Made by a program: the position numbers and the translations under genes
The notes under the pieces: model-generated
Database searches by the model: none
Told to the model about the DNA's origin: nothing
The model's input: only the letters and a program-made list of their open reading frames with translations
Shown: piece by piece, positions 13,421-27,373 of the stretch
How the letters are laid out: each line of letters starts with the position of its first letter
How positions within the stretch are numbered: the first letter of the stretch is position 1
DNA from: Sandaracinus amylolyticus
Lineage (GTDB): Bacteria; Myxococcota_A; Polyangia; Polyangiales; Sandaracinaceae
Assembly (NCBI RefSeq): GCF_021631985.1
Contig: NZ_CP070225.1
Location: 310,001-374,000, forward strand
Direction of reading: 5' to 3'
Length of the DNA stretch: 64,000 nt

Positions 13421-14092
13421 TCACTTCCTCAGCAGGCTGAACGCGTGGCCCCAGCTCTTGGTGCGCATCCCGTAGCGCACCCAGAGGATGCACAGCGGCT
13501 CGAGGAGTCGCGCGCCGTCCAAGCCGCCGATGTCGACGCCGTCGTGACCGAACGACGTCACGATCTCGCCCACGACCTTCTTCGCGCCCTCGTCGTTCCC
13601 GCAGAAGAACATCGTCGGCGTCCCCTGCGCGAGCGTCGGCTTCACCATCAGCGCGTTCCCGATCGTGTTGAATGCCTTCACGACCTTCGCGCCCGGCAGC
13701 CATCGCTGCACCTGCTCGCCGCCCGAGTCGGTGTGCGCCAGCGCGAGCTCGGGCCCGTGACCGGTGAACTGCAAGGGATTGGTCACGTCGATCACGACCT
13801 TGCCCGCGAGCGCCGCCGGGCCGCCCGCCATGTCGATCGCGCTCTTCGTGCCGGTCCACAGCGTCGCGAGCACGACGATGTCCGCGCCCTCGACCGCCGC
13901 CGCGAACGCGCCGAGCTCACCCTTGCCGCGATGCTTCGCGAGCCAGGTCCCCATCCGCTCGTTGGTCTCGGGATCGCGTGGATCGCGCGCGCCGATCGTC
14001 ACGCGATCCCCGAGCACGTCGATGAATCCCGAGCCGAGCGCTCGCCCGACGTCACCCGTCCCGAGGATCCCGATCTTGGGTTCGTCATGCAT
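13421..14092 (-). CDS. NAD(P)-binding F420-dependent NADP reductase-like protein
   Basis: Rossmann-fold protein of 223 residues. Residues 6-14 show the dinucleotide-binding 'IGILGTGDVG'. 'VIDVTNPL' (about 122-129) and 'VVKAFNTIG' (about 161-169) are the signatures of the F420-dependent NADP oxidoreductase / 'coenzyme F420-dependent' superfamily. The C-terminus ends in a helix with 'LWVRYGMRT'. The length fits the family. Whether it uses F420 or another substrate cannot be read from the sequence; many homologues in bacteria act on other small molecules. It lies 15 bp downstream of the Cys-rich lipoprotein gene on the same strand and may be the last gene of a five-gene transcript from 18880. 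Confidence 0.88.
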   Translation of the reverse strand: MHDEPKIGILGTGDVGRALGSGFIDVLGDRVTIGARDPRDPETNERMGTWLAKHRGKGELGAFAAAVEGADIVVLATLWTGTKSAIDMAGGPAALAGKVVIDVTNPLQFTGHGPELALAHTDSGGEQVQRWLPGAKVVKAFNTIGNALMVKPTLAQGTPTMFFCGNDEGAKKVVGEIVTSFGHDGVDIGGLDGARLLEPLCILWVRYGMRTKSWGHAFSLLRK

Positions 14093-14107
14093 TGCGATGC
14101 TACCCGC

Positions 14108-14923
14108 TCACGGCAATCCGCAGATGTCCCCAGCGCAGGTCAATCCCGGACCACACGCGCGCGCGCCCTCACAACACGGCAATTCGAAATCACCGCAGCG
14201 CCGACAGCGATCCACTCCGTCGCTCTCGCTCGTGCACGACATCCCGGCGCCACAGCGCGTCTCGCCCTCGCAGCAGGTCCGGCCATCCGCGCCGCACGTC
14301 GGGCCCGGAAGACACTGCGAGAACGAGTCTCCCGGCGTCATCGAGGTGCAGCCCAGCCCCGCGCCGCACGCCGCGCCCTCGTCACAACAACGCTCGTACT
14401 CGCCGCCGCAGGGCGGCGGCTCCGACAAGCACTGTCCGAGCGTGCCCGACTCCGCGAGACAATAGAGATCACCGTCGCACTCCGCGCCCGGACAACACTG
14501 CTCGCCGAGCGCGCCGCAGCGCAGACACGTGCCCTCGTGACAGAGGAAGTCCTCGCGACACGGCGTGCCCTCGAAGCAGCACTCGTGTCCTTCCGAGCCG
14601 CAGCCCGGCTCGACGCACATCCCGTCCTCGCACACCGCGTCGATCCCGAGGTGGCAATAGCCCTCGGCGCAGCAGGGCAGTCCGATCTCGCCGCAGCCCT
14701 GGTATCCGCAGAGCCCGGCCATGCACGGCAGTCCATTGCCGCACTGTCCGTCGGCGCAACAGACCTCGCCTTCTTCGTCACAACGTGCGCGCGGATCGCC
14801 GCCGTCGACGTCCTGCGACGCGTCGAGGCCGCCCGCATCGTCCCCGCCCGCATCGACCTCGTCGACCGGGTCGGACGTGCATCCGACCACGAGCGCGAGG
14901 AGGAGGATCGCGCGCGCCCTCAT
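14108..14923 (-). CDS. Cys-rich repeat lipoprotein (module copy 2)
   Basis: Secreted protein of 271 residues. Signal and lipobox are at residues 1-15 ('ALVVGC'), then an Asp/Ala/Gly linker. From about residue 45 to the end there are roughly eight short units of the type CG..G..CC.....C..GL.C..G.C, each carrying about six cysteines, as in knottin- or EGF-like disulfide folds. The ATG overlaps the stop of the upstream beta-propeller gene (ATGA), so they are coupled. A paralogue (16536-17372) is coupled to a paralogous propeller gene in the same way, showing that the two-gene module was duplicated. Binding partner unknown. Confidence 0.85.
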   Translation of the reverse strand: MRARAILLLALVVGCTSDPVDEVDAGGDDAGGLDASQDVDGGDPRARCDEEGEVCCADGQCGNGLPCMAGLCGYQGCGEIGLPCCAEGYCHLGIDAVCEDGMCVEPGCGSEGHECCFEGTPCREDFLCHEGTCLRCGALGEQCCPGAECDGDLYCLAESGTLGQCLSEPPPCGGEYERCCDEGAACGAGLGCTSMTPGDSFSQCLPGPTCGADGRTCCEGETRCGAGMSCTSESDGVDRCRRCGDFELPCCEGARACGPGLTCAGDICGLP

Positions 14924-16494
14924 TCCGGCGCCTCGTAGCAGAAGCCTTCGATGCACGTCTCGCCCTCGGGGCAGTCGTCGTCGGTGTCGCACTGCGGCCT
15001 TCTCACCGTCAGCGCCCACTCGCCCATGCGGTTGTCGAGGCGCCATCGCTGCGCCGGCACTCGGAACGCGGGGCGCGAGGGATCGTCGGGATCGGCCTCG
15101 GGATCGAACGCCGCCATCCAGATCTGCCGACCTGCGGTGAACTCGTGATCGATCGCCGGGAGCAGTCCGCAGTCACGCGCGGTGGAGAACGTGAGCCAGT
15201 AGATCCGCCGCCCGTCGTGGGTGTAGGGATTCGGGTTCCAGCGCAGGATCTCGGGCCGCTCGTGGTATCGATCCACGTCGCCGAGCGCGCGGCGCAGGTG
15301 GACGTACCGACCGTCGGAGATCCGAGCCGCGACGATCAGCGGCGCGAAGGTGCCAGTCGCGTCCTGATCGGTGGAGTCGAGCGCGGTGAATCCGACCCAG
15401 TCCGAGTCCGGCGCGAACGACGGCGAATAAGCACCGATGATGTCGGGCGTCGGGATCTTCCGCGGCTCCTGCCAAGCTCCGTCGATCCGCTCGATCAACA
15501 TCAGATCGAACACGAACAGGAACCCGCGCATGTCGACGGTCAGGTCGTAGACGATGCGATCTCCGTCGGGCGACCAGTCCGCGCTGTGCCCGGGGCCCAC
15601 GTCGAACTGCTGCACGACGCTCCCGTCGCTGACGATCTGGATCGTCCGCGAGTCCGGCAGATCCGCGAGCTGCGCGCTGAGGAGCAGGTCGTGCTCGGGG
15701 CCATATCGCGCGACGTAACCCTCGGCCGAGACGAACGGCGCTCCGACCTCCGCGCGCGTCACGACGTCGAACACGCGGGTGACCACGTCCGTCCCGCTGC
15801 CGACCGCGCTGATCGCGATGCGCGTCCCGTCGCGCGAGACCGAGTGCGTCGTGAAGAGTCCGTCGGTGTCGAGGAATCGCTCCGAGCTCCGCCGCTCGAG
15901 GCCCAGCTCGTGCCGCCTGATCGAAGGAGGGGAGTCGGTGGCCGACGAATAATAGAGCCCACCGACGATCGGCTCGTCGGCGAGCTCGAGCTCGATGGCC
16001 TCGGACGCCGCGGTCACGCGATCCCCGGCGAGACCACGAATCGAGATCTCGTAGGGCCCGGCGCTGCGGCGCGCCGCGACCTCCGCCCAGACGTCGCGCC
16101 ACGGCTGGAACACGCACCCATCGCCCACCGGCGCGCAGCGCGTGTACACGACGACCGAGGGCATCCCGCCCTGCGCGAACGTCACCTCGAACGCCTGCAC
16201 CACCGCCGCGCGGAAGTGGATGTCGACGCCGAGCATGTTCGGCGGAACGAGCGTGCCAGTCTCCGGATAGACGATCTCCGGTGCTGCGATCGACGCCGGC
16301 GACCCGGTCGCGAATTGCGCTCTCGTCTCCTCGCCGAAGCCTTCGTCGAAGAACACGCGATAAGGCAGCCCCGCGTCGGCTCCGCCGTCCGGCGATCCCG
16401 AGTCGTTCGCCCCGGCATCGGCGTCGTCGTCACCGCCCGACGAACAAGCGACGACGCAGATCGCGAGACACGCGCACAGACATCGCATCGTCAT
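14920..16494 (-). CDS. TolB-like beta-propeller lipoprotein lacking the CxxCH motif (module copy 2)
   Basis: Lipoprotein of 524 residues. ATG 16494 has GGAG 7 nt upstream; lipobox 'CVVAC' near residue 16, then an Asp/Gly linker. An N-terminal beta domain (about 45-190) precedes PD40/TolB-type repeats, for example 'HSADWSPDGDRIVYD' and 'SPSFAPDSDWVGFTA'. The C-terminus carries a Cys-rich tag 'CDTDDDCPEGETCIEGFCY'. The equivalent of the CVGCH heme-type motif in its paralogue (17369-18880) reads LFTTH: both cysteines are gone and the His remains. ATGA overlap with the next gene. It probably forms an outer-surface complex with the Cys-rich partner (inference from coupling). Confidence 0.85.
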   Translation of the reverse strand: MTMRCLCACLAICVVACSSGGDDDADAGANDSGSPDGGADAGLPYRVFFDEGFGEETRAQFATGSPASIAAPEIVYPETGTLVPPNMLGVDIHFRAAVVQAFEVTFAQGGMPSVVVYTRCAPVGDGCVFQPWRDVWAEVAARRSAGPYEISIRGLAGDRVTAASEAIELELADEPIVGGLYYSSATDSPPSIRRHELGLERRSSERFLDTDGLFTTHSVSRDGTRIAISAVGSGTDVVTRVFDVVTRAEVGAPFVSAEGYVARYGPEHDLLLSAQLADLPDSRTIQIVSDGSVVQQFDVGPGHSADWSPDGDRIVYDLTVDMRGFLFVFDLMLIERIDGAWQEPRKIPTPDIIGAYSPSFAPDSDWVGFTALDSTDQDATGTFAPLIVAARISDGRYVHLRRALGDVDRYHERPEILRWNPNPYTHDGRRIYWLTFSTARDCGLLPAIDHEFTAGRQIWMAAFDPEADPDDPSRPAFRVPAQRWRLDNRMGEWALTVRRPQCDTDDDCPEGETCIEGFCYEAPE

Positions 16495-16535
16495 GTCGAC
16501 ACTCCACCGCCCAAACCTGTCCGGGCTCGCTCTCC

Positions 16536-17372
16536 TCACGGCGCGAGCCCGCAGAGACCTTCGCTGCACGTCAGCCCCGGACCGCACGGAGGATCTCCGC
16601 CGGCGCAGCACGCGAGCCCGTGCTCGCCGCAGCGCCGACACCGATCGACTCCGTCGTCCGACGTCGTGCAGTCCATCCCGAGCCCGCACGCCGGCGAGCC
16701 CTCGCAGCACACCCGTCCATCGGACCCGCACGCCGGGCCGGGCAGACAGATCGGCGCTCCGAAATCGGACGCGACGCAGCCGAGCCCGGGCCCGCACGCG
16801 TCGCCTTCTTCACAACACTCCGCGCCGAGCGCTCCGCACGGGATCGGCGCGACGCACACCCACGCGCCGAAGAGGTTCTGCAGGCAGTCGATGCCCTCGT
16901 CGCAGACCATCCCCGGGCAACAGTCCTGATCTGCCGCGCCACACGGCGCGCAGCGCTCGCCGATGCACGAGAGCCCCTCGCTGCACGCGGGATCGCTCTC
17001 GCAGCACGCCGCGCCTTCCGCGCCGCACGGGGCATCGACGCAGGTCCCGTCCTCGCACACGCCGCCGGGATCGCACTGATCGAGCTCGCAGCACGGCCCA
17101 CCGATCGCGCCGCACCCCGCGCTCGTGCACGTCCCGTCGACGCAGAGGAGGCCACCGCCGCACGTCGCGCCGAGGCAGCACAGCTCGCCTTCCTCGTCGC
17201 AGCGCGCGTCGGGATCGGCGTCGCTCGCGTCGACGCCCGCGTCGTCGGCGGAGCCGGCGTCGATCGCGGACGCGTCGACCGCGCCCGCGTCGTCACCCGC
17301 ATCGGGCACGTCGTAGAAGCGCGTGCAGCCGCACAGCGCGACCAGCGCGAGACAGAGCGCGCGCGTCGTCAT
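16536..17372 (-). CDS. Cys-rich repeat lipoprotein (module copy 1)
   Basis: Secreted protein of 278 residues, paralogue of 14108-14923. Lipobox 'ALCGC' lies near residue 15. An Asp/Ala/Ser linker is followed by about eight CG..G..CC....C..GL.C..G.C units to the C-terminus. The ATG (17372) overlaps the TGA of the upstream propeller gene by 4 nt. The next gene downstream, a paralogous propeller, begins 41 bp after its stop. The spacing suggests one long transcript covering both module copies. No enzymatic motif is visible. Confidence 0.85.
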   Translation of the reverse strand: MTTRALCLALVALCGCTRFYDVPDAGDDAGAVDASAIDAGSADDAGVDASDADPDARCDEEGELCCLGATCGGGLLCVDGTCTSAGCGAIGGPCCELDQCDPGGVCEDGTCVDAPCGAEGAACCESDPACSEGLSCIGERCAPCGAADQDCCPGMVCDEGIDCLQNLFGAWVCVAPIPCGALGAECCEEGDACGPGLGCVASDFGAPICLPGPACGSDGRVCCEGSPACGLGMDCTTSDDGVDRCRRCGEHGLACCAGGDPPCGPGLTCSEGLCGLAP

Positions 17373-18880
17373 TCCGGCCCCTCCGGGAAGCAGAATCCGT
17401 CGATGCACACCTCGCCCGCGGGACAGTCGTCGTCGTCCTCGCAGGGCTGCCGGCGCGCCTCGGTCGTCCACTCCGCGATGAAGTTGTCGACGTCTCCGCG
17501 CTGTCCGGGAAAGCGCAGCGCAGGACGCGAAGGATCCTCGGGGTCGGCCTCGGGATCGAACGCCGCCATCCAGATCTGTCGCTCGCCGCCCGCGACCACG
17601 CCGTGCGCGCGGCCGCTCGAGAACGTGAGCCAGTAGATGCGCCGCCCCTGCTGCAGGTACGGGCTCGGGTTCCACCGGATCCACGTCGCGTCGCTGCTCG
17701 CGCCGAGCGCACGATCCAGCACCACCGGCGACGCATCCGGCGTGCGCGTCGCGACCAGCACCGAGCGCGCGTCGACGCGCGCGGTGTACCCGATCCACTC
17801 CGAGTCCGGCGCGAACGCGGGCCCGTGCTCCTCGTCGGTGCCCGGCGTCTCGAGCACCGCGGGCGCGCCCCACGTCTCACCGCTGCGCGCGATGATCTGC
17901 AGCGCGCGCGCCTCCGCGCCGATCGCGCCGTCGAACACCACGCGCGATCCATCGGGCGACCAGTCCGCCGACACGCCCGACACGCCGAACTCGTGGAGCA
18001 CGCGGCCATCGACACCCGACACGATGCGCAGCGGTCGATCGAGCCCGTCGGCCGGCGGCGGGCTCCCGCTCACCAAGAGATCGTCGGCATCGCCGTACGC
18101 GGGGAGCGGCGCGTCGATCTCGCTCGCCAGCACCTGCGAGCGCGTCGCCACGTCGTAGATGCGCGCGCGGAAGCCGTTCGTCGCGTCGTACACGCCGACC
18201 GCGATGCGCGACCCATCGCGCGAGATCGCGTGACAGCCCACGCACGTGCCTTCCTCGGTCTGGCTCAGGTAGAGCTCGGAGCTGCGCCGCCCGAGCGCGA
18301 AGTCGTAGCGGCGGATCGACGGCGGATCGGTCGACCAGAAGTAGAGCGCGCCCTGGATCGCCTCGTGCGCGAGCTCGAGCTCCACCGGCTCCGACGTCGC
18401 GCTCACGCGATCCCCCGCGAGCCCGCGCATGCGCATCTCGAACGGGCCCATCGTCCGCCGCGCCGCGAGGGCGCTCCACACCTCGTCCCACGGCTGCAGC
18501 ACGCAGCCCGAGCCGACCGGACGACACCACGCGTACACGACGATCGCGCGGGCGCCGCGCTGCGAGAACGTCAGCTCGAACGTGTCGTAGGTCCGCCCCG
18601 TGAAGTGCACGTCGACGCCCACGAGGTTCGGCGGCACGAGCGTGCCGCTCTCGGGGTACACGATGCGCGGCGGCTCGTCCGACGCGGGCATCGCCGACTC
18701 GAAGCGTCGCTCGATCGCCTCGTCGAGCCCCTCGTCGAAGAACACCAGGTATCCGCGCCCCGCGTCGGCGCCGGCGTCGAACGGCGCAATCGACGCATCG
18801 ACGCCATCACCCGGCGCTTCGACGGTGCACGCGCAGAGCGCGATCGCGGCGATGCCGGACGCAAGAGCGACGTCTCGCAT
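17369..18880 (-). CDS. TolB-like beta-propeller lipoprotein with c-type heme motif CVGCH (module copy 1)
   Basis: Lipoprotein of 503 residues. ATG 18880 was chosen because it gives a lipobox 'IALCAC' near residue 18; the frame runs on upstream but with no signal. Plan: signal, short acidic linker, beta domain (about 40-180), then 'CVGCHAISRDGSRIAV' (bases 18230-18244 encode CVGCH), then PD40-type repeats ('SADWSPDGSRVVFD', 'GPAFAPDSEWIGYTA'). The C-terminus ends in a 'CEDDDDCPAGEVCIDGFCF' tag. CxxCH followed by a PD40 strand is the usual covalent heme attachment pattern. Heme binding is inferred, not proven. First gene of the minus-strand series, 380 bp from the divergent hflX-like gene. Confidence 0.86.
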   Translation of the reverse strand: MRDVALASGIAAIALCACTVEAPGDGVDASIAPFDAGADAGRGYLVFFDEGLDEAIERRFESAMPASDEPPRIVYPESGTLVPPNLVGVDVHFTGRTYDTFELTFSQRGARAIVVYAWCRPVGSGCVLQPWDEVWSALAARRTMGPFEMRMRGLAGDRVSATSEPVELELAHEAIQGALYFWSTDPPSIRRYDFALGRRSSELYLSQTEEGTCVGCHAISRDGSRIAVGVYDATNGFRARIYDVATRSQVLASEIDAPLPAYGDADDLLVSGSPPPADGLDRPLRIVSGVDGRVLHEFGVSGVSADWSPDGSRVVFDGAIGAEARALQIIARSGETWGAPAVLETPGTDEEHGPAFAPDSEWIGYTARVDARSVLVATRTPDASPVVLDRALGASSDATWIRWNPSPYLQQGRRIYWLTFSSGRAHGVVAGGERQIWMAAFDPEADPEDPSRPALRFPGQRGDVDNFIAEWTTEARRQPCEDDDDCPAGEVCIDGFCFPEGPE

Positions 18881-18917
18881 GCGTGACAGGAGAACGTCTC
18901 CCGCGTCGTGGTGCAGC

Positions 18918-19003: not shown

Positions 19004-19042
19004 ATGTTCGACCTCGTGTTGAAGTTCCTCCGTTTGCGCTGA
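19004..19042 (+). CDS. Possible 12-codon leader peptide ending in Arg-Leu-Arg
   Basis: ATG at 19004 opens a 12-codon frame, MFDLVLKFLRLR, closed by TGA at 19040-19042. It lies about 50 nt downstream of the proposed promoter and 218 nt before the HflX-Mph fusion. The C-terminal R-L-R is an Arg/Lys-X-Arg/Lys motif, the type at which ribosomes stall with macrolides bound, as known for the ErmD leader. A perfect 10-bp hairpin starts 4 nt after the stop. Against it: no Shine-Dalgarno sequence is visible, and short frames of this size are common by chance. Reported because its position and C-terminus fit macrolide-inducible attenuation. Confidence 0.3.
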   Translation: MFDLVLKFLRLR

Positions 19043-19071: not shown

Positions 19072-19260
19072 AGCAACCCGCCCGAACGTTCCTTCCCACC
19101 GGAAGGCCCGGGCGCGGTGCATCGCGCAATCGAGGAGCCAACACGTCGCAGACCCCGCGCTCGCGCGAGGCGGTGCGTCGTGTCCCCGAGCGTCGTGTCC
19201 ACCCGCGTCCCGGGTCGTCCCCCGCGTCCGCGCGCGCTCGCGCGGCGAAAGGAGACCTCG

Positions 19261-21414
19261 ATGACCCGTCCCCGAAGCTCTTCGTCGTCCGATCGATCGT
19301 CCGACCTCGCCATCCTGCTCGCGCCGAGCGGCGAGGCTTCGTGCTCCGAGCTCCAGCGCCTGCTCGCCGGGCTCGGCGTTCGCGTCGCTCACACCATCCC
19401 GCTCTCGCGCATGCTCGGCGAAGGCAAGCGCGCCGAGGTGCGCGCGAAGATCGACGCGCTCGCGCGCGGCCCCGACGAGCACGTCCTCGTCGTCGTCGAT
19501 CGCGCGCTCGATCCCGGCGCCCAGCGCGAGCTCGAGGTCGCGCTCGACGTCGAGGTGCTCGACCGCACCGCGGTCGTGCTCCGCGTGTTCGAGCAGCGCG
19601 CCCGCACCCGGCTCGCGCAGCTCGAGGTCGAGCTCGCGCGCCTCGCGTACGAGATCCCGCGCGTGCGCGACGACGGCGCACGACGTGATCGCGAAGGCGG
19701 CGGTGGGGGTCGCGGCGCGCGCGGCCACACCGAGGTCGAGCTGCGCAAGCAGCAGCTGCGCGAGCGCAGCGCGCGCCTCGAGCGCGAGGTCGAGCGACTG
19801 CGCGCCTCCCGCGCGACCCAGGCCGCGGCGCGCCGTGACGTCCCGCGCGTCGCGCTGGTCGGCTACACGAACGCCGGCAAGTCGTCGCTGCTGCGCGCGC
19901 TGACCGGCAGCGACGTGCTCGTCGAGGACGCGCTCTTCGCCACGCTCGACACCACCGTGCGCGCGCTCGCGCCTGCGACGACGCCGCGCGTCCTCGTCTC
20001 CGACACGGTCGGCTTCATGCGGAGCCTCCCGCATGCGCTGGTCGCGTCGTTCCACACGACGCTCGACGAAGCGCGCGACACGGATCTGCTGCTCCTCGTC
20101 GTCGACGCGTCGGAACCCGAGCATCACGAGCAGCTGCGTGTCACGCGCGAGGTGCTCACCGCGATCGGCGCGACGTCGCCGACACGGATCGTGCTGAGCA
20201 AGATCGATCGTGTCGATCCCGAGCGCCGCGCGTCGCTCCTCGCCGAGCATCCCGGGGCGATCGCGATCAGCGCGCACGATCCCACCGAGGTGCGCCGCCT
20301 GCGCGACGCGATCGTCGCGTTCTTCGCGAAGGACGAGGAGCACGACGTGCTCGTCGTGCCGTTCACCGAGGGTCGACTGATCGCCGACATCCGTGCCGCG
20401 GCGCGGATCCTCTCCGAGCATCACGACGAGTCGGGCGCGGTGCTCGCGATCCGCGCACGGCCCGAGGCGCTCGATCGATGGCGCGCCGCGCTGCCTCCGC
20501 TGCCGTCGATCACGAGCGCCGCGGAGCTCGTCGCCGCAGCTGCGCGCTACGGGCTCCGGGTCACGCCCGAGCGCGACGTGCTCGACGCGAGCGGCCTCGA
20601 CTTCCTCGTGGTCCACGCGCGCGACGACGCCGGCGCGCCGTGGATCGTCCGCACCCCGCGCCGGGCGGACGTGATCGCGTCCGCGCAGCGCGAGGCGCGG
20701 GTGCTGCGGCTCGTCGCGCCGTCGCTCGCGGTGGCGGTTCCCGACTGGCGCGTCCACGCACGCGATGTGATCGCGTACCCGCGCCTCGAGGGCACGCCGG
20801 GCTGGCGCTTCGACGACACCGGAGCGCTGCGGTGGGCGTTCGATCCGAGCGCACCGCCCGATGCGTTCCTCGACACCTACGCGCACCTGCTCGCGTCGCT
20901 GCAGGCGATCCCGCTCGATCGCCTCCACGACGCGGGCGTGCGCGTCGAGTCGGTCGGCGACGCACGCACCGAGCTCGCCCGCGCGATGCGCGACACGCGC
21001 GACGCGCTGGCGCCGTCCGACGCGGTGTGGGTGCGATGGCAGCGGTGGATCGACGACGACGCGTCGTGGCCCACCCACGTCGCGCTCGCGCACGCCGACC
21101 TCCACCCCGGCCACCTGCTCCTCGACGGCCAGGCTCGCATCACCGGCGTGCTCGACTGGACGGAGGCGCGCGCGACCGATCCGTCGATCGATCTCGCGAT
21201 GCTCTTCGGCTGCTACGGGCGCAGCGCGCTCGAGTCGGTCGTCGATCGCTTCGCGCGCGCCGGCGGCGTCACCTGGCCCGCGATCGTCTCGCACACGATC
21301 GAGCGCTGGGCCGCGAACGCCGCCTTGATCGCGGAGTGGGCGCTGCGCACCGGCGACGACGCGGTGCTCGCACACGCGCGCCATCACCTCGCGACGATCA
21401 CCGCATCGACCTGA
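19261..21414 (+). CDS. hflX: HflX GTPase fused to a macrolide 2'-phosphotransferase-like domain
   Basis: Single frame of 717 residues; ATG 19261 has AAAGGAG about 7 nt upstream. Residues 1 to about 410 are a complete HflX. They hold the N-terminal ribosome-binding domain with 'VDRALDPGAQRELE', a coiled-coil linker with a Gly-rich insert, G1 'GYTNAGKSSLL' (about 201-211), G2 region 'FATLDTT', G3 'DTVGF', G4 'SKID' and a short C-terminal domain. From about 416 to the end, the sequence follows Mph-type macrolide kinases: 'PRRADVIA....EARVL', 'AVPDWRV', 'VAYP'-like 'IAYPRLEG', 'RWQRWIDDDASWP', catalytic loop 'HADLHPGHLL' and metal site 'LDWTEA.ATDPSIDLA'. HflX splits stalled ribosomes and is linked to macrolide/lincosamide tolerance in several bacteria; Mph enzymes inactivate macrolides. 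The fusion is intact, with no stop at the junction. Kinase substrate is inferred from family likeness. Confidence 0.9.
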   Translation: MTRPRSSSSSDRSSDLAILLAPSGEASCSELQRLLAGLGVRVAHTIPLSRMLGEGKRAEVRAKIDALARGPDEHVLVVVDRALDPGAQRELEVALDVEVLDRTAVVLRVFEQRARTRLAQLEVELARLAYEIPRVRDDGARRDREGGGGGRGARGHTEVELRKQQLRERSARLEREVERLRASRATQAAARRDVPRVALVGYTNAGKSSLLRALTGSDVLVEDALFATLDTTVRALAPATTPRVLVSDTVGFMRSLPHALVASFHTTLDEARDTDLLLLVVDASEPEHHEQLRVTREVLTAIGATSPTRIVLSKIDRVDPERRASLLAEHPGAIAISAHDPTEVRRLRDAIVAFFAKDEEHDVLVVPFTEGRLIADIRAAARILSEHHDESGAVLAIRARPEALDRWRAALPPLPSITSAAELVAAAARYGLRVTPERDVLDASGLDFLVVHARDDAGAPWIVRTPRRADVIASAQREARVLRLVAPSLAVAVPDWRVHARDVIAYPRLEGTPGWRFDDTGALRWAFDPSAPPDAFLDTYAHLLASLQAIPLDRLHDAGVRVESVGDARTELARAMRDTRDALAPSDAVWVRWQRWIDDDASWPTHVALAHADLHPGHLLLDGQARITGVLDWTEARATDPSIDLAMLFGCYGRSALESVVDRFARAGGVTWPAIVSHTIERWAANAALIAEWALRTGDDAVLAHARHHLATITAST

Positions 21415-23620: not shown

Positions 23621-23706
23621 GGAGTGCTCGTCCCGGAGGGACCGGACGGGAGCGCGCGTAGCGCGCGCGAACGGGAGGGCCCGGAGTGGCGAGCCGATTT
23701 TTCCAG
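23621..23706 (+). repeat. Palindromic hairpin/U-tract element, copy 2
   Basis: Second copy of the element at 11328-11407, in the same orientation. Shared blocks include GGAGTGCTCGTCC, CCGGACGGGAGCGCG, AGCGCGCGC and CGAGCCGATTTTT. The closing GCTCG/CGAGC pairing and the U-tract are kept, the middle of the stem is less regular, and the inner GCGCGCG-TA-GCGCGCGC hairpin is stronger. It ends only 7 nt before the ATG of the TonB receptor gene. A GGAGGG and an in-frame GTG (23686) lie inside its 3' arm, so folding could mask a start site. Confidence 0.7.
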
Positions 23707-23712
23707 TCGCCG

Positions 23713-25653
23713 ATGCGCAGTCTCCCAGCCCTCGCCGTTTCGCTGTCGATCGCGCTCTGCGCCTCGCGTGCCCACGCCCAGCCAGCGGCGCCGCCCGAGT
23801 GCCCACCCGACGACGATCTCTGCGCCTCGCGAGTCGTCGTGAGCGCCACGCGCACCGAGGTCGCGCAGGACGACAGCCCGGTGCGCGTCGAGGTGATCGA
23901 TCGCGCGACGATCGAGCGCTCGGGCGCGCGTGATCTCGGCGAGCTCCTCGAGGAGCAGCCCGGTCTCCTCGTGACGCGCTCGTTCCGCGGCGACGCGATC
24001 CAGATGCAGGGCCTCGACCCCGAGCACGTGCTCGTGCTCGTCGACGGCGAGCGGGTGCCGGGCCGCGTCGGCGGCGCGATCGATCTCGGTCGCTACACGC
24101 TCGAGGACATCGAGCGCGTCGAGATCGTGCGCGGCGGATCGAGCGCGCTCTACGGCTCCGACGCGATCGCCGGCGTCGTCCACGTCATCACGCGACGCAC
24201 CCGCGACGACGTCGAGCTCGACGCGAGCGCGAGCGGCGGAGGAGGCGAGGGCGGTGGGCTCGCCGATGCGACCGCGCGCGCCGCCGTGCGCCTCGGTGAC
24301 TTCGCGCTGCGCATCTCGGGCGGCTTCCACTGGGCCGAGCCCTTCCGTCGCGGCGGCGATCCCACGATCCCCGAGGACCAGCGCGCGACCGACGGCAGCG
24401 AGCGCATGCAGTGGTCGCTCGGCGGCGACGTGCGCTGGCGCGTCGACCCGACGCTCTCGCTCGACGCGCGCGCCGAGTACATGCAGCGCGGTCTCTCGGG
24501 CGTCGATCGCAACGACGCGGGCGCGGTCTTCGATCGCGCGCAGCTCGCAGAGCAGATGCAGAGCGGGCTCGGCGCGTCGTGGACGTTCGGAGGCGGGACG
24601 CGCCTCGCCACCCGCGCGTCGTACGCGATCTTCCGCGAGCAGTACCTCCGCGATCAGCGCGGCGCGTCCGCGCTCGACGAGCACCAGGACCACCGCGAGG
24701 ACCTCGGACAGCTCCTCGTGCAGCTCGACATCCCGGTCGACACGCACCTGCTCACGTTCGGCTTCGAAGAGCTCTTCCAGCGCCTCGAGTCGGATCGCCT
24801 CGACGGAGTCGGCACGCGCTTCCGCGCATCGCCGTTCGCGCAGGACGAGTGGACCGTGATCGACGACGACGTGCGCCTCGTGCTGGTGCCCGGCGTGCGC
24901 GTCGACGCGGACTCGCAGTACGGCACTCAGCTCTCGCCGAAGCTCGCGGTGCGCTTCGATCCGGTCCGCCAGCTCGTGCTGCGCGCGTCGTTCGGCACCG
25001 GCTTCCGCGCGCCTTCGTTCCAAGAGCTCCTGCTGCGCTTCGAGAACCCGAGCGTCGGCTACGTCGTCCTCGGCAACCCCGAGCTCGGCCCCGAGACCTC
25101 GCGCAGCTACCAGCTCGGCGCCGAGTGGACGCCGATCACCGAGCTGCGCGGATCGCTCTCGCTCTTCCGCAACGACGTCGACGGCCTCATCACGACCGTG
25201 ACCGCCGAAGAGAGCCCCGACGGCACGCTCTTCACGTACGGCAACATCGCCTCCGCGACCACGCAGGGCATCGAGTCGTCGCTCACCGCGCGCCCGATCC
25301 GCGAGCTCTCGCTCGCCGCGAGCTACACGTTCACGCACGCGTGGGATCACGAGAACGATCGCGCGCTCGAGGGACGCGCCGCGCATCGCATCACGCTGAG
25401 CGCGACGTTCGATCACCGCGAGTGGGATCTCGGCGCGACCGCACGCTGGGCGCTCACCGGTGAGCGCCCGTTCTACGTCGACGAAGGGCTGATCCACTCG
25501 CCCTGGGCCGCGCAGCTCGACCTGCGCATCTACAAGCGCTTCGAGCGCCACCTCGAGATCTCCGCGGGCGTCGACAACGTGCTCGACGCCGGAGACGCGT
25601 ACCTGCCGCTGCGCCCCCGCACGTTCTACGGCGGCGTCCGCGGTCGGCTGTGA
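23713..25653 (+). CDS. TonB-dependent outer-membrane receptor (BtuB/heme-receptor type)
   Basis: Outer-membrane receptor of 646 residues from ATG 23713. Signal peptide ends 'ASRAHA|QP'. A TonB-box-like 'VVVSATR' is followed by the plug (about 35-165) with 'DLGELLEEQPGLLV', 'VLVLVDGERVPG' and 'IERVEIVRGGSSALYGSDAIAGVV'. A 22-strand-type barrel follows, ending '..TFYGGVRGRL'. An alternative GTG at 23686 adds nine residues and has GGAGGG 6-7 nt upstream, but it lies inside the palindromic repeat. Followed 43 bp later by a HmuY-family lipoprotein and preceded by Fur-like boxes, so heme is the likely substrate (context-based inference). A TonB/ExbB/ExbD set is not in the window. Confidence 0.9.
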   Translation: MRSLPALAVSLSIALCASRAHAQPAAPPECPPDDDLCASRVVVSATRTEVAQDDSPVRVEVIDRATIERSGARDLGELLEEQPGLLVTRSFRGDAIQMQGLDPEHVLVLVDGERVPGRVGGAIDLGRYTLEDIERVEIVRGGSSALYGSDAIAGVVHVITRRTRDDVELDASASGGGGEGGGLADATARAAVRLGDFALRISGGFHWAEPFRRGGDPTIPEDQRATDGSERMQWSLGGDVRWRVDPTLSLDARAEYMQRGLSGVDRNDAGAVFDRAQLAEQMQSGLGASWTFGGGTRLATRASYAIFREQYLRDQRGASALDEHQDHREDLGQLLVQLDIPVDTHLLTFGFEELFQRLESDRLDGVGTRFRASPFAQDEWTVIDDDVRLVLVPGVRVDADSQYGTQLSPKLAVRFDPVRQLVLRASFGTGFRAPSFQELLLRFENPSVGYVVLGNPELGPETSRSYQLGAEWTPITELRGSLSLFRNDVDGLITTVTAEESPDGTLFTYGNIASATTQGIESSLTARPIRELSLAASYTFTHAWDHENDRALEGRAAHRITLSATFDHREWDLGATARWALTGERPFYVDEGLIHSPWAAQLDLRIYKRFERHLEISAGVDNVLDAGDAYLPLRPRTFYGGVRGRL

Positions 25654-25696
25654 TTTCTGCTGCGAGACGCAGCGACGAGAGCAGGAGAAGTTCGAC

Positions 25697-27373
25697 ATGA
25701 TCAGCACCACACGCATCGCGCTCGTCGCGATCGCGCTCACCACGTTCGCGTGCGCGCCCGACCTGCGCTCCGACGACGACGGAGAGGACGCCGGCGCGCA
25801 CGACGCGGGCCCCGTCCAGGACGGCTCGATCCCGTCTTCGAGCGGACCCTTCCGCCACACCGTGAACGACGACGGAACGATCACCACGATCGTCGACGCG
25901 ACCGAGGGCACGGCCTATCTCGATCTCGAGTCCGGCCTCGCGGTCACGCCCGCCGATCCGCTCGACTCGCGCGACTGGGATCTCGCGTTCACGCGCTTCT
26001 CGATCATCACGAACGGCGGTGCGAGCGGCACCGGCGGCGCGGCCGCGGCGCGCCTGCCCGAGGCCGACTTCGACGCGCTCGACACCGCGCCCGAGACCGG
26101 CTGGATCGCCGACGGGCCCGACATCGAAGAGGACACCGACGCGTTCCCCGAGAGCGCGTTCAACGGCGGCGTCGAGGGCGCGAACGACTGGTACGACTAC
26201 GATCCTTCGTCGCACCGCCTCACGCCGCGCGACGTCGTGTTCGTGGTGCGCACCGTCGAGGGCCACTTCTTCAAGCTGCGCATCGAGGCCTACTACGACG
26301 ACGCGGGCACGCCGGCGGTGATCACGTTCCGCTGGGCGCGCATCGACGGCGACGACGTCGAGCTGCCCGACGCCGGCCCCCCCGATCGTCCCGATGCCGG
26401 TGGTGACGCGGGCGTCGATCCGATCCCGACCGACGCGATCACCGTCGACGCGTCGGCGCGCGATGCGTTCGTCTACCTGCGCGTCGGCGCGGGTGTCGTC
26501 GACATCGCCGATCCCGAGACCTCGCTCGACTGGGATCTCGCGATCCGCCGCACCCTGATCCGCACCAACTCGGGCGAGAGCGGCACCGGCCTCGGCGGCG
26601 CGCGCAGCGCGGGCGCCGTCGAGCTCGAGCGCGTGATCGAGACCGACACGATCGGGTTCGTCGTCGACGACATCGCGGCGAGCGGCATCCCGGGCGCGCC
26701 GGCCGAAGCGCGCAGTCCGATCCTCGCGTCCTGGTACGACTACGACCCGACGACCCACGCGGTCACGCCGAAGGACGAGACCTTCGTGGTGCGCACCGCG
26801 CGCGGTGGGTACGCGCGCCTTCGCATCTGGTCGTGGGCCGACGGCACGTTCCGCCTCTCGCTCGAAGCGATCGACGTCGCGCCGCAGGAGCACGCGATCG
26901 AGGTCGACGCGTCGACGAGCAACGTGTGGGCGTACGTCGATCTGCATGCGGCCGCGCTCGTCACCGTCGCCGAGCCCGCGACCGACGCGACCTGGGATCT
27001 CGCGCTGAGCCGCACGCTCTATCGCACGAGCTCGGGCACCAGCGGTCCGGGGCAGGGTGGCGCGATCGACATGAACGTCGCCGATCCCGCCACCGTGCTC
27101 GAGCTGCCGAGCGAGGGCTTCGTCGCCGACGACGAGCGCACGATCCCCGGTCCGCCGGGCTCGCCGACGTACTCGGGCAACGGCGCGCTCGAGGGCTGGT
27201 ACTCGTACGACCCGACGACCCACGCGGTCTCGCCGCGCGCGACGACCTACGCAGTCCGCCTCGCCGACGGCAGCGTCGGACGGCTCGTGGTCCGCGCCTA
27301 CGCGAGCGGTCGCTCGACGCTCGGCTGGACCTACGCGGGCCCCGGCCGCACGAGCGTCGCGGCCTCCCGCTGA
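25697..27373 (+). CDS. HmuY-family lipoprotein with three tandem domains
   Basis: Lipoprotein of 558 residues; AGGAG 9 nt before the ATG; lipobox 'TTFAC' (Cys19). After an acidic linker come three HmuY-like domains (about 55-215, 236-392 and 396-545). Each shows 'YLDL/YLRV..G..V....P.....WDLA..R..I.TN.G.SG.G' near its start and 'WYDYDP..H..TP....VVRT..G...LRI' near its end. HmuY binds heme at the cell surface and hands it to a TonB receptor; family members normally have one domain. The receptor gene lies directly upstream. Domains 1 and 2 are most alike; the third has 'WYSYDP'. Which His residues ligate heme cannot be read by eye. Confidence 0.82.
   Translation: MISTTRIALVAIALTTFACAPDLRSDDDGEDAGAHDAGPVQDGSIPSSSGPFRHTVNDDGTITTIVDATEGTAYLDLESGLAVTPADPLDSRDWDLAFTRFSIITNGGASGTGGAAAARLPEADFDALDTAPETGWIADGPDIEEDTDAFPESAFNGGVEGANDWYDYDPSSHRLTPRDVVFVVRTVEGHFFKLRIEAYYDDAGTPAVITFRWARIDGDDVELPDAGPPDRPDAGGDAGVDPIPTDAITVDASARDAFVYLRVGAGVVDIADPETSLDWDLAIRRTLIRTNSGESGTGLGGARSAGAVELERVIETDTIGFVVDDIAASGIPGAPAEARSPILASWYDYDPTTHAVTPKDETFVVRTARGGYARLRIWSWADGTFRLSLEAIDVAPQEHAIEVDASTSNVWAYVDLHAAALVTVAEPATDATWDLALSRTLYRTSSGTSGPGQGGAIDMNVADPATVLELPSEGFVADDERTIPGPPGSPTYSGNGALEGWYSYDPTTHAVSPRATTYAVRLADGSVGRLVVRAYASGRSTLGWTYAGPGRTSVAASR

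Follow-up and report, generated by a model that had tools for sequence, protein, structure and literature searches.

Fusion of an HflX-type GTPase and an Mph-type macrolide kinase in Myxococcota, a predicted macrolide-inducible resistance protein

The window, i.e., the whole stretch of 64,000 nucleotides of Sandaracinus amylolyticus that was analysed, comes from a genome of 10.96 Mb in two contigs and carries a gene in which a complete HflX is joined to a kinase of the macrolide phosphotransferase (Mph) family. The gene, its domains, and the elements in front of it are listed below.

19016..19042, +: leader mini-ORF GTG TTG AAG TTC CTC CGT TTG CGC TGA, encoding (fM)LKFLRLR-stop
19031-19039, +: RLR codons of this leader, read from the sequence
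19087..19117, +: 5'-leader RNA block CGTTCCTTCCCACCGGAAGGCCCGGGCGCGG of 31 nt, a candidate attenuator element
19248..19254, +: Shine-Dalgarno sequence AAAGGAG of the fusion gene, read from the sequence
19261..21414, +: hflX-mph fusion gene, a single open frame of 717 codons plus stop
19336..19590, +: HflX N-terminal subdomain ND1, residues 26-110 (PF13167)
19591..19839, +: HflX helical domain, residues 111-193 (PF16360)
19663..19743, +: HD-loop, residues 135-161, with GGGGGRGARGHTEVEL instead of the canonical GGxGxRGPGETxLE (alignment)
19840..20316, +: HflX GTPase domain, residues 194-352 (PF01926, TIGR03156)
20317..20490, +: HflX C-terminal domain, residues 353-410 (AlphaFold model, matches to 8a57 and 8uua)
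20491..20517, +: inter-domain linker LPPLPSITS, residues 411-419 (model, pLDDT ~90 there)
20518..21411, +: Mph-type macrolide kinase domain, residues 420-717
Within residues 420-717: kinase catalytic motifs HADLHPGH (D613, H618) and LDWTEA (D632)

The genes on either side encode unrelated proteins, one with PD40 repeats (upstream) and one of the kelch type (downstream), and lie on the opposite strand, so the fusion gene appears to be its own transcription unit. Beside it, at 13421-18886 (-), the window contains a row of Cys-rich, beta-propeller-like genes of the secreted or lipoprotein type with CGxxGxxCC repeats and, in one gene, PD40 repeats. At 23686-27373 (+), a TonB-dependent receptor adjoins a protein with three HmuY (haem-binding) domains.

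The HflX half (residues 1-410) scores 293.8 bits against TIGR03156 (cut-off 216.75), passes the Pfam cut-offs for GTP-bdg_N, GTP-bdg_M, and MMR_HSR1, and has all of its N-terminal, helical, GTPase, and C-terminal domains according to Pfam, the structural model, and Foldseek. This agrees with the initial annotation, in which a complete HflX with its G motifs and a G1 at about residue 201 had been described. G1 is GYTNAGKS at residues 201-208, G3 is DTVGF, and G4 is SKID; in the alignment, this Asn-to-Ser change in G4 occurs in both species of the genus, with NKxD in the remaining fusions, and ND1 of the window protein is shorter by ~7-15 residues than in other fusions. In the second half, the APH model PF01636 matches residues 443-674 with 100.6 bits, and the top NCBIfam matches to residues 418-712 are all Mph models, the best being MphC with 214 bits. 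None of the cut-offs of the named Mph alleles is reached (550 bits for MphC). As these NCBIfam models are defined at the allele level with cut-offs of 500 or more bits, the kinase half is regarded here as an Mph family member that corresponds to no named allele. The catalytic Asp, His, and Asp of the HxDxxxxH and DW motifs are present as D613, H618, and D632. The macrolide-kinase identity proposed at the outset was thereby borne out: no non-Mph kinase scores higher, and a generic aminoglycoside kinase was ruled out, as the best matches are all Mph. Likewise, the solved structures closest to the two halves are HflX/HflXr and MphA, MphB, MphE, and MphH, respectively. The kinase half resembles Mph(A), Mph(B), Mph(C), Mph(E), and MphH in fold (TMt 0.84-0.91), active-site motifs, and full-length domain, and differs from named Mphs by an identity of ~28-35% in structural alignments, by scores under every allele cut-off, and by its tether to HflX. 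The Pro at the HxDxHPGH position resembles that of MphI, where this residue contributes to narrow specificity (PMC5760710).

An AlphaFold2 model of the window protein, built from 73 locus-derived rows, has a pLDDT of 90.3 and a pTM of 0.77, with values of <50 only at the N-terminus and the HD-loop tip. Foldseek searches with this model returned Listeria HflXr on the 50S subunit first (8a57, 8uua), followed by Mph structures that include drug complexes (TMt 0.84-0.91). Nothing other than residues 411-419 lies between the HflX C-terminal domain and the kinase, in line with the domain boundary initially placed at about residue 416. The HflX C-terminal domain touches the L7/L12 stalk base (PMC12493154), and the binding site of macrolides is the exit tunnel (PMC8298421). 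Because a short linker follows the domain that contacts the stalk base, the kinase on its 9 residues is expected at the edge of the 50S subunit, at a distance from the tunnel. A direct attack on ribosome-bound drug is unlikely, and capture of the drug after its release is the more plausible form of coupling.

In G001, the second species of the genus, the gene likewise runs over 717 codons with no indel and is 89% identical. Between the two species, dN/dS amounts to 0.28 in the HflX half and 0.30 in the Mph half, i.e., both are under purifying selection, and the HflX helical domain shows zero amino-acid changes in 83 codons (dN = 0). G002, a fragmented assembly and the third genome from this genus, gave no Mph match. 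Among 318 genomes of the class, the fusion was recovered in two of its own genus and in six of Nannocystis, all six with an open frame of 756-757 codons that spans the same HflX-Mph junction. Further hosts are Lujinxingia vulgaris, a Lujinxingiaceae MAG, and a Myxococcales MAG, and a search of the phylum added five genomes (G485, G494, G561, G602, and G673, the last truncated by a contig end), bringing the total to 16 Myxococcota genomes. Both the uninterrupted frame and the two-domain layout noted in the initial annotation thus recur elsewhere, and a frameshift or chimera was ruled out by the gap-free gene of the sister species, the Nannocystis frames, and the dN/dS values. The single frame with a short linker has been kept in at least seven lineages, and the catalytic residues of the kinase are intact in 14 of the 15 aligned fusions. 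The divergent fusion of G602 (L257, C371; also L244) has a kinase part without the HGDxHPGH motif, possibly a pseudokinase or a decaying kinase. Since its HflX and RLR-stop leader remain, at least one lineage can do without the kinase. A separate canonical HflX is kept by the fusion hosts examined, and the window genome has two HflX genes besides the fusion. Of the plasmid records, none has a place covering 80% of the query, and no relative of the fusion was found on viral contigs. An identity with the anti-phage proteins LeoA/LeoBC was dismissed, as the weak matches were confined to the GTPase domain and taken as a shared GTPase fold.

A quick tree, in which some branches are long, unites all fused HflX halves in a single clade (SH-aLRT 99) that is sister to the unfused myxobacterial HflX2 clade (30 rows) and far from canonical HflX. 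In the same tree they fall outside the Listeria HflXr clade, as a separate myxobacterial clade, and are therefore not filed here as HflXr, although they may work like it. Members of the fused clade share an HD-loop of their own, GGGG(G)RGxRGHTNVEL or a close variant of it, versus GGxGxRGPGETxLE in unfused and reference HflX. In HflX, it is this loop that extends to the peptidyl-transferase centre (PTC) (PMC12493154). Its replacement weakens the claim of conventional PTC probing and leaves the descent from the family untouched; the splitting function could be changed rather than conventional. HflX2 itself (e.g., G000:C1:651004) is a second unfused clade that is widespread in Polyangia, has the loop GGIGGKGAGESxLELDRR, and is without an RLR-stop leader.

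The fused kinases and the standalone myxobacterial Mphs form one clade (100/99). Within it, the AU test rejects a clade of fused kinases only (p 0.0096), standalone myxobacterial Mphs being nested among them, and equally rejects a clade of the standalone Mphs (p 0.0072). These standalone members occur in Polyangiaceae and as second copies in Nannocystis. Because the HflX halves form one clade, the simplest account is a single fusion event, after which the kinase was split off or duplicated in some lineages; it is also possible that kinase halves were swapped or replaced in fusions.

A mini-ORF that ends in RLR-stop is found 180-330 nt upstream of 15 of the 16 fusions, L097 being the only one with no RLR ORF within reach. 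The corresponding figures are 0/20 for unfused HflX2 genes and 2.1% for random 450-nt windows of the same sequences. As the leaders occur in ~7 separate lineages, chance is not a credible source. RLR is an established arrest motif in macrolide leader peptides (PMC8298421) and a mark of macrolide-resistance leaders that is used by Listeria hflXr as well (PMC6310831). The sister species encodes (fM)LKSLRLR-stop; the leaders of Nannocystis (6/6) are 8-codon ORFs, e.g., MFAFIRLR and MVFFIRLR, each ending at RLR; and other lineages have MIDLFHIRLR, MIDCFHIRLR, MRKFCFYIRLR, MWISHYIRLR, MFILCLVRLR, and MWTLLYARLR. In the window, the GTG is the putative start codon, and an in-frame ATG at 19004 would give the peptide MFDLVLKFLRLR; no Shine-Dalgarno sequence is visible before the leader ORF, and leaderless initiation is possible. 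At L084-L088 and L117, TTGCGC and CATTCT-like boxes lie ~18 nt apart, ~280 nt before the fusion. They end roughly 10 nt 5' of the leader ATG, such that a leaderless transcript may serve translation of the leader.

Downstream of the leader ORF, the block CGTTCCTTCCCACCGGAAGGCCCGGGCGCGG is conserved in both species of the genus and in 6/6 Nannocystis, and the leader RNA of the window is more stable than 200 shuffled versions (z -3.0). For a consensus fold of the leaders, covariation among the two close groups was too thin to define a specific attenuator structure, and Rfam gave no known element in the leaders (a cobalamin riboswitch lies elsewhere in L159). No RLR ORF stands directly before the kinase part of the fused genes; a single leader precedes HflX. 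Standalone Mphs, too, are preceded by RLR leaders, as seen in Polyangiaceae-like genomes, Nannocystis, Brevibacillus, and Paenibacillus. This ties the motif to macrolide kinases, and the RLR-stop leader is apparently a widespread type of Mph leader.

Separate but adjacent hflXr and mph genes were found in nine Bacillota genomes, four from a family search and five named ones (Bacillus pakistanensis, Rossellomorea sp., and three Oceanobacillus). At the five named pairs, mph lies directly downstream of hflX on the same strand, overlapping it or <=36 bp apart, and each of these hosts has another HflX elsewhere in the genome. In the family search, the pair was present at 6 of the best 30 Mph loci and hence characterises only a minority of them; within the B. 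pakistanensis family, a true Mph occurs only in the two operon genomes. The HflX proteins of these operons cluster with Listeria HflXr (SH-aLRT 99, quick tree). RLR leaders, each with a GGAGG site (e.g., MATIRLRFRALNH), occur at four of the five named pairs. L113 has a strongly structured leader (z -5.5), in which a hairpin resembling a terminator precedes hflX. RLR is internal in those Bacillota operon leaders that were read, while in the myxobacterial fusions it stands at the leader end, before the stop. The Mphs of the two groups of Bacillota pairs are separated lineages and the fusion occurs in another phylum, which indicates that HflX and Mph became linked at least twice, and probably three times.

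The fusion clade, the RLR leaders, and the adjacent hflXr-mph genes in Bacillota support a role in macrolide resistance. The fusion is predicted to be a macrolide-inducible, dual-function resistance protein that combines ribosome rescue with drug inactivation, and we give this reading a probability of about 0.75. By homology to hflXr and erm leaders, a macrolide would stall the ribosome on the RLR mini-ORF, after which the leader RNA would refold and the fusion would be expressed. The HflX half, a specialised paralogue with a PTC-probing loop of its own, would then bind and split the stalled 70S ribosome, and would probably help to evict the drug, as can be expected from HflX/HflXr. The Mph half, with its intact active site, would use GTP to phosphorylate the 2'-OH of desosamine as in the Mph family, so that the drug would not rebind. 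The covalent link would probably favour capture of the drug that leaves the recycled ribosome, in addition to 1:1 expression. We infer both activities, the induction, and the physical coupling from these relationships. Counting against this explanation are the kinase loss in G602, the Ser in G4, the position of HflX outside the HflXr clade, the altered HD-loop, the window leader with no visible Shine-Dalgarno sequence, and the fusion at L097 without RLR. The stricter version, in which a single protein ejects and inactivates under RLR-stop control, with HflX evicting the macrolide and the tethered kinase phosphorylating it before it can rebind, is put forward tentatively, as somewhat more likely to be wrong than right. 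With respect to the initial annotation, the macrolide link gained from the conservation of the fusion, the RLR leaders, and the Bacillota pairs, inactivation on the ribosome itself is geometrically doubtful given the linker and the stalk base, and the suggestion of a ribosome-linked substrate of the kinase found no support.

The two functions may also share a polypeptide for the sake of co-regulation and stoichiometry, the kinase acting on free drug with no channelling. This is a sub-case of the explanation given above, minus the coupling step, and a serious contender that comes close to an even chance. In its favour, Bacillota have the pair as neighbouring but separate genes, standalone Mphs of the same clade and with the same leader type nest among the fused kinases, and msr(E)-mph(E) is a known case of such co-expression (PMC5776109); what such an arrangement leaves unexplained is the retention of one frame with a short linker over at least seven lineages. 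It is unlikely that the kinase has moved on from macrolides to a different target, be it a part of the ribosome, a nucleotide, or some other antibiotic, and that HflX serves to dock it. The versatility of APH folds, the scores of the kinase half under all named Mph allele cut-offs, and the degenerate kinase of G602 would fit this reading. Against it, every one of the nearest families and structures is Mph, the catalytic residues are intact in 14 of the 15 fusions aligned, and the RLR leader is shared with standalone Mphs.

Given that HflX has further roles in stress and biogenesis (PMC12493154) and that the kinase motif is gone in G602, the fused HflX might serve mainly in general stress or ribosome assembly, with the kinase as a passenger. 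This is improbable in view of the separate canonical HflX retained by the fusion genomes examined, the macrolide control indicated by the RLR leaders, and the purifying selection on the kinase half. That the fusion is an artefact of assembly or of a frameshift, or arose once as a neutral event without functional meaning, has hardly any probability left beside a gap-free sister-species gene, a dN/dS near 0.3 in both halves, and 16 genomes.

The predicted macrolide-inducible resistance protein can be compared with several known systems. HflXr of Listeria (Lmo0762) confers resistance to erythromycin and lincomycin (Duval et al. 2018, PMC6310831). Like HflXr, the fusion is a further HflX beside the canonical one, with the HflX fold, an upstream RLR mini-ORF, and a link to macrolides/lincosamides; unlike HflXr, it has a kinase domain, belongs to a separate clade, and has a different HD-loop sequence. 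The msr(E)-mph(E) and mef(C)-mph(G) pairs also join a second macrolide mechanism to phosphorylation (PMC5776109), albeit as separate proteins, with an ABC-F protein or an efflux pump and no ribosome-splitting GTPase. The hflXr-mph genes of Oceanobacillus and Bacillus/Rossellomorea share with the fusion the two functions, their order, and mostly the RLR leader upstream of hflX, and differ in being two genes of other HflX and Mph clades in another phylum. Bifunctional aminoglycoside enzymes such as AAC(6')-APH(2'') hold two resistance activities in one polypeptide, with one APH fold. In these enzymes both halves modify the drug, and we know of none that rescues the target. The fusion likewise pairs two predicted resistance activities and one APH fold, and differs in that its HflX half would rescue the target.

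Text searches of the open literature found no description of an HflX-Mph fusion or an hflXr-mph operon; the initial view that the layout is undescribed thus holds for the open-access papers searched, not for all literature. Both types of parts are known, and so are gene pairs that combine an Mph with a second macrolide-resistance determinant (msr(E)-mph(E), PMC5776109). New here are the RLR-stop leaders upstream of the fusions and the adjacent hflXr-mph genes in Bacillota. A conserved fusion with a macrolide-type leader, together with a parallel gene pair in another phylum, indicates that evolution repeatedly joins ribosome rescue and drug destruction. Whether HflX confers macrolide resistance by ribosome splitting or by another route has been described as unclear (PMC12493154), and the fusion offers a directly testable system in which rescue and inactivation may prove additive or coupled. 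If coupled, it would be a new kind of resistance protein in which target rescue and drug destruction are physically joined. Annotation by one name, e.g., 'HflX', would hide such a resistance architecture. Myxobacteria emerge as a reservoir of probably inducible macrolide-resistance genes, and many short RLR-stop leaders are added to those known. Many leaders of standalone Mphs (L064-L078, L095, L106-L128) have 7-13 codons and end exactly in RLR-stop (e.g., MAFIRLR and MGIASMRLR). At L043:6904-7977 (G005), a standalone Mph of the window's family has Glu for the usual catalytic Asp (SHGELYAAH) and is preceded by the RLR-stop leader MASASFIRLR.
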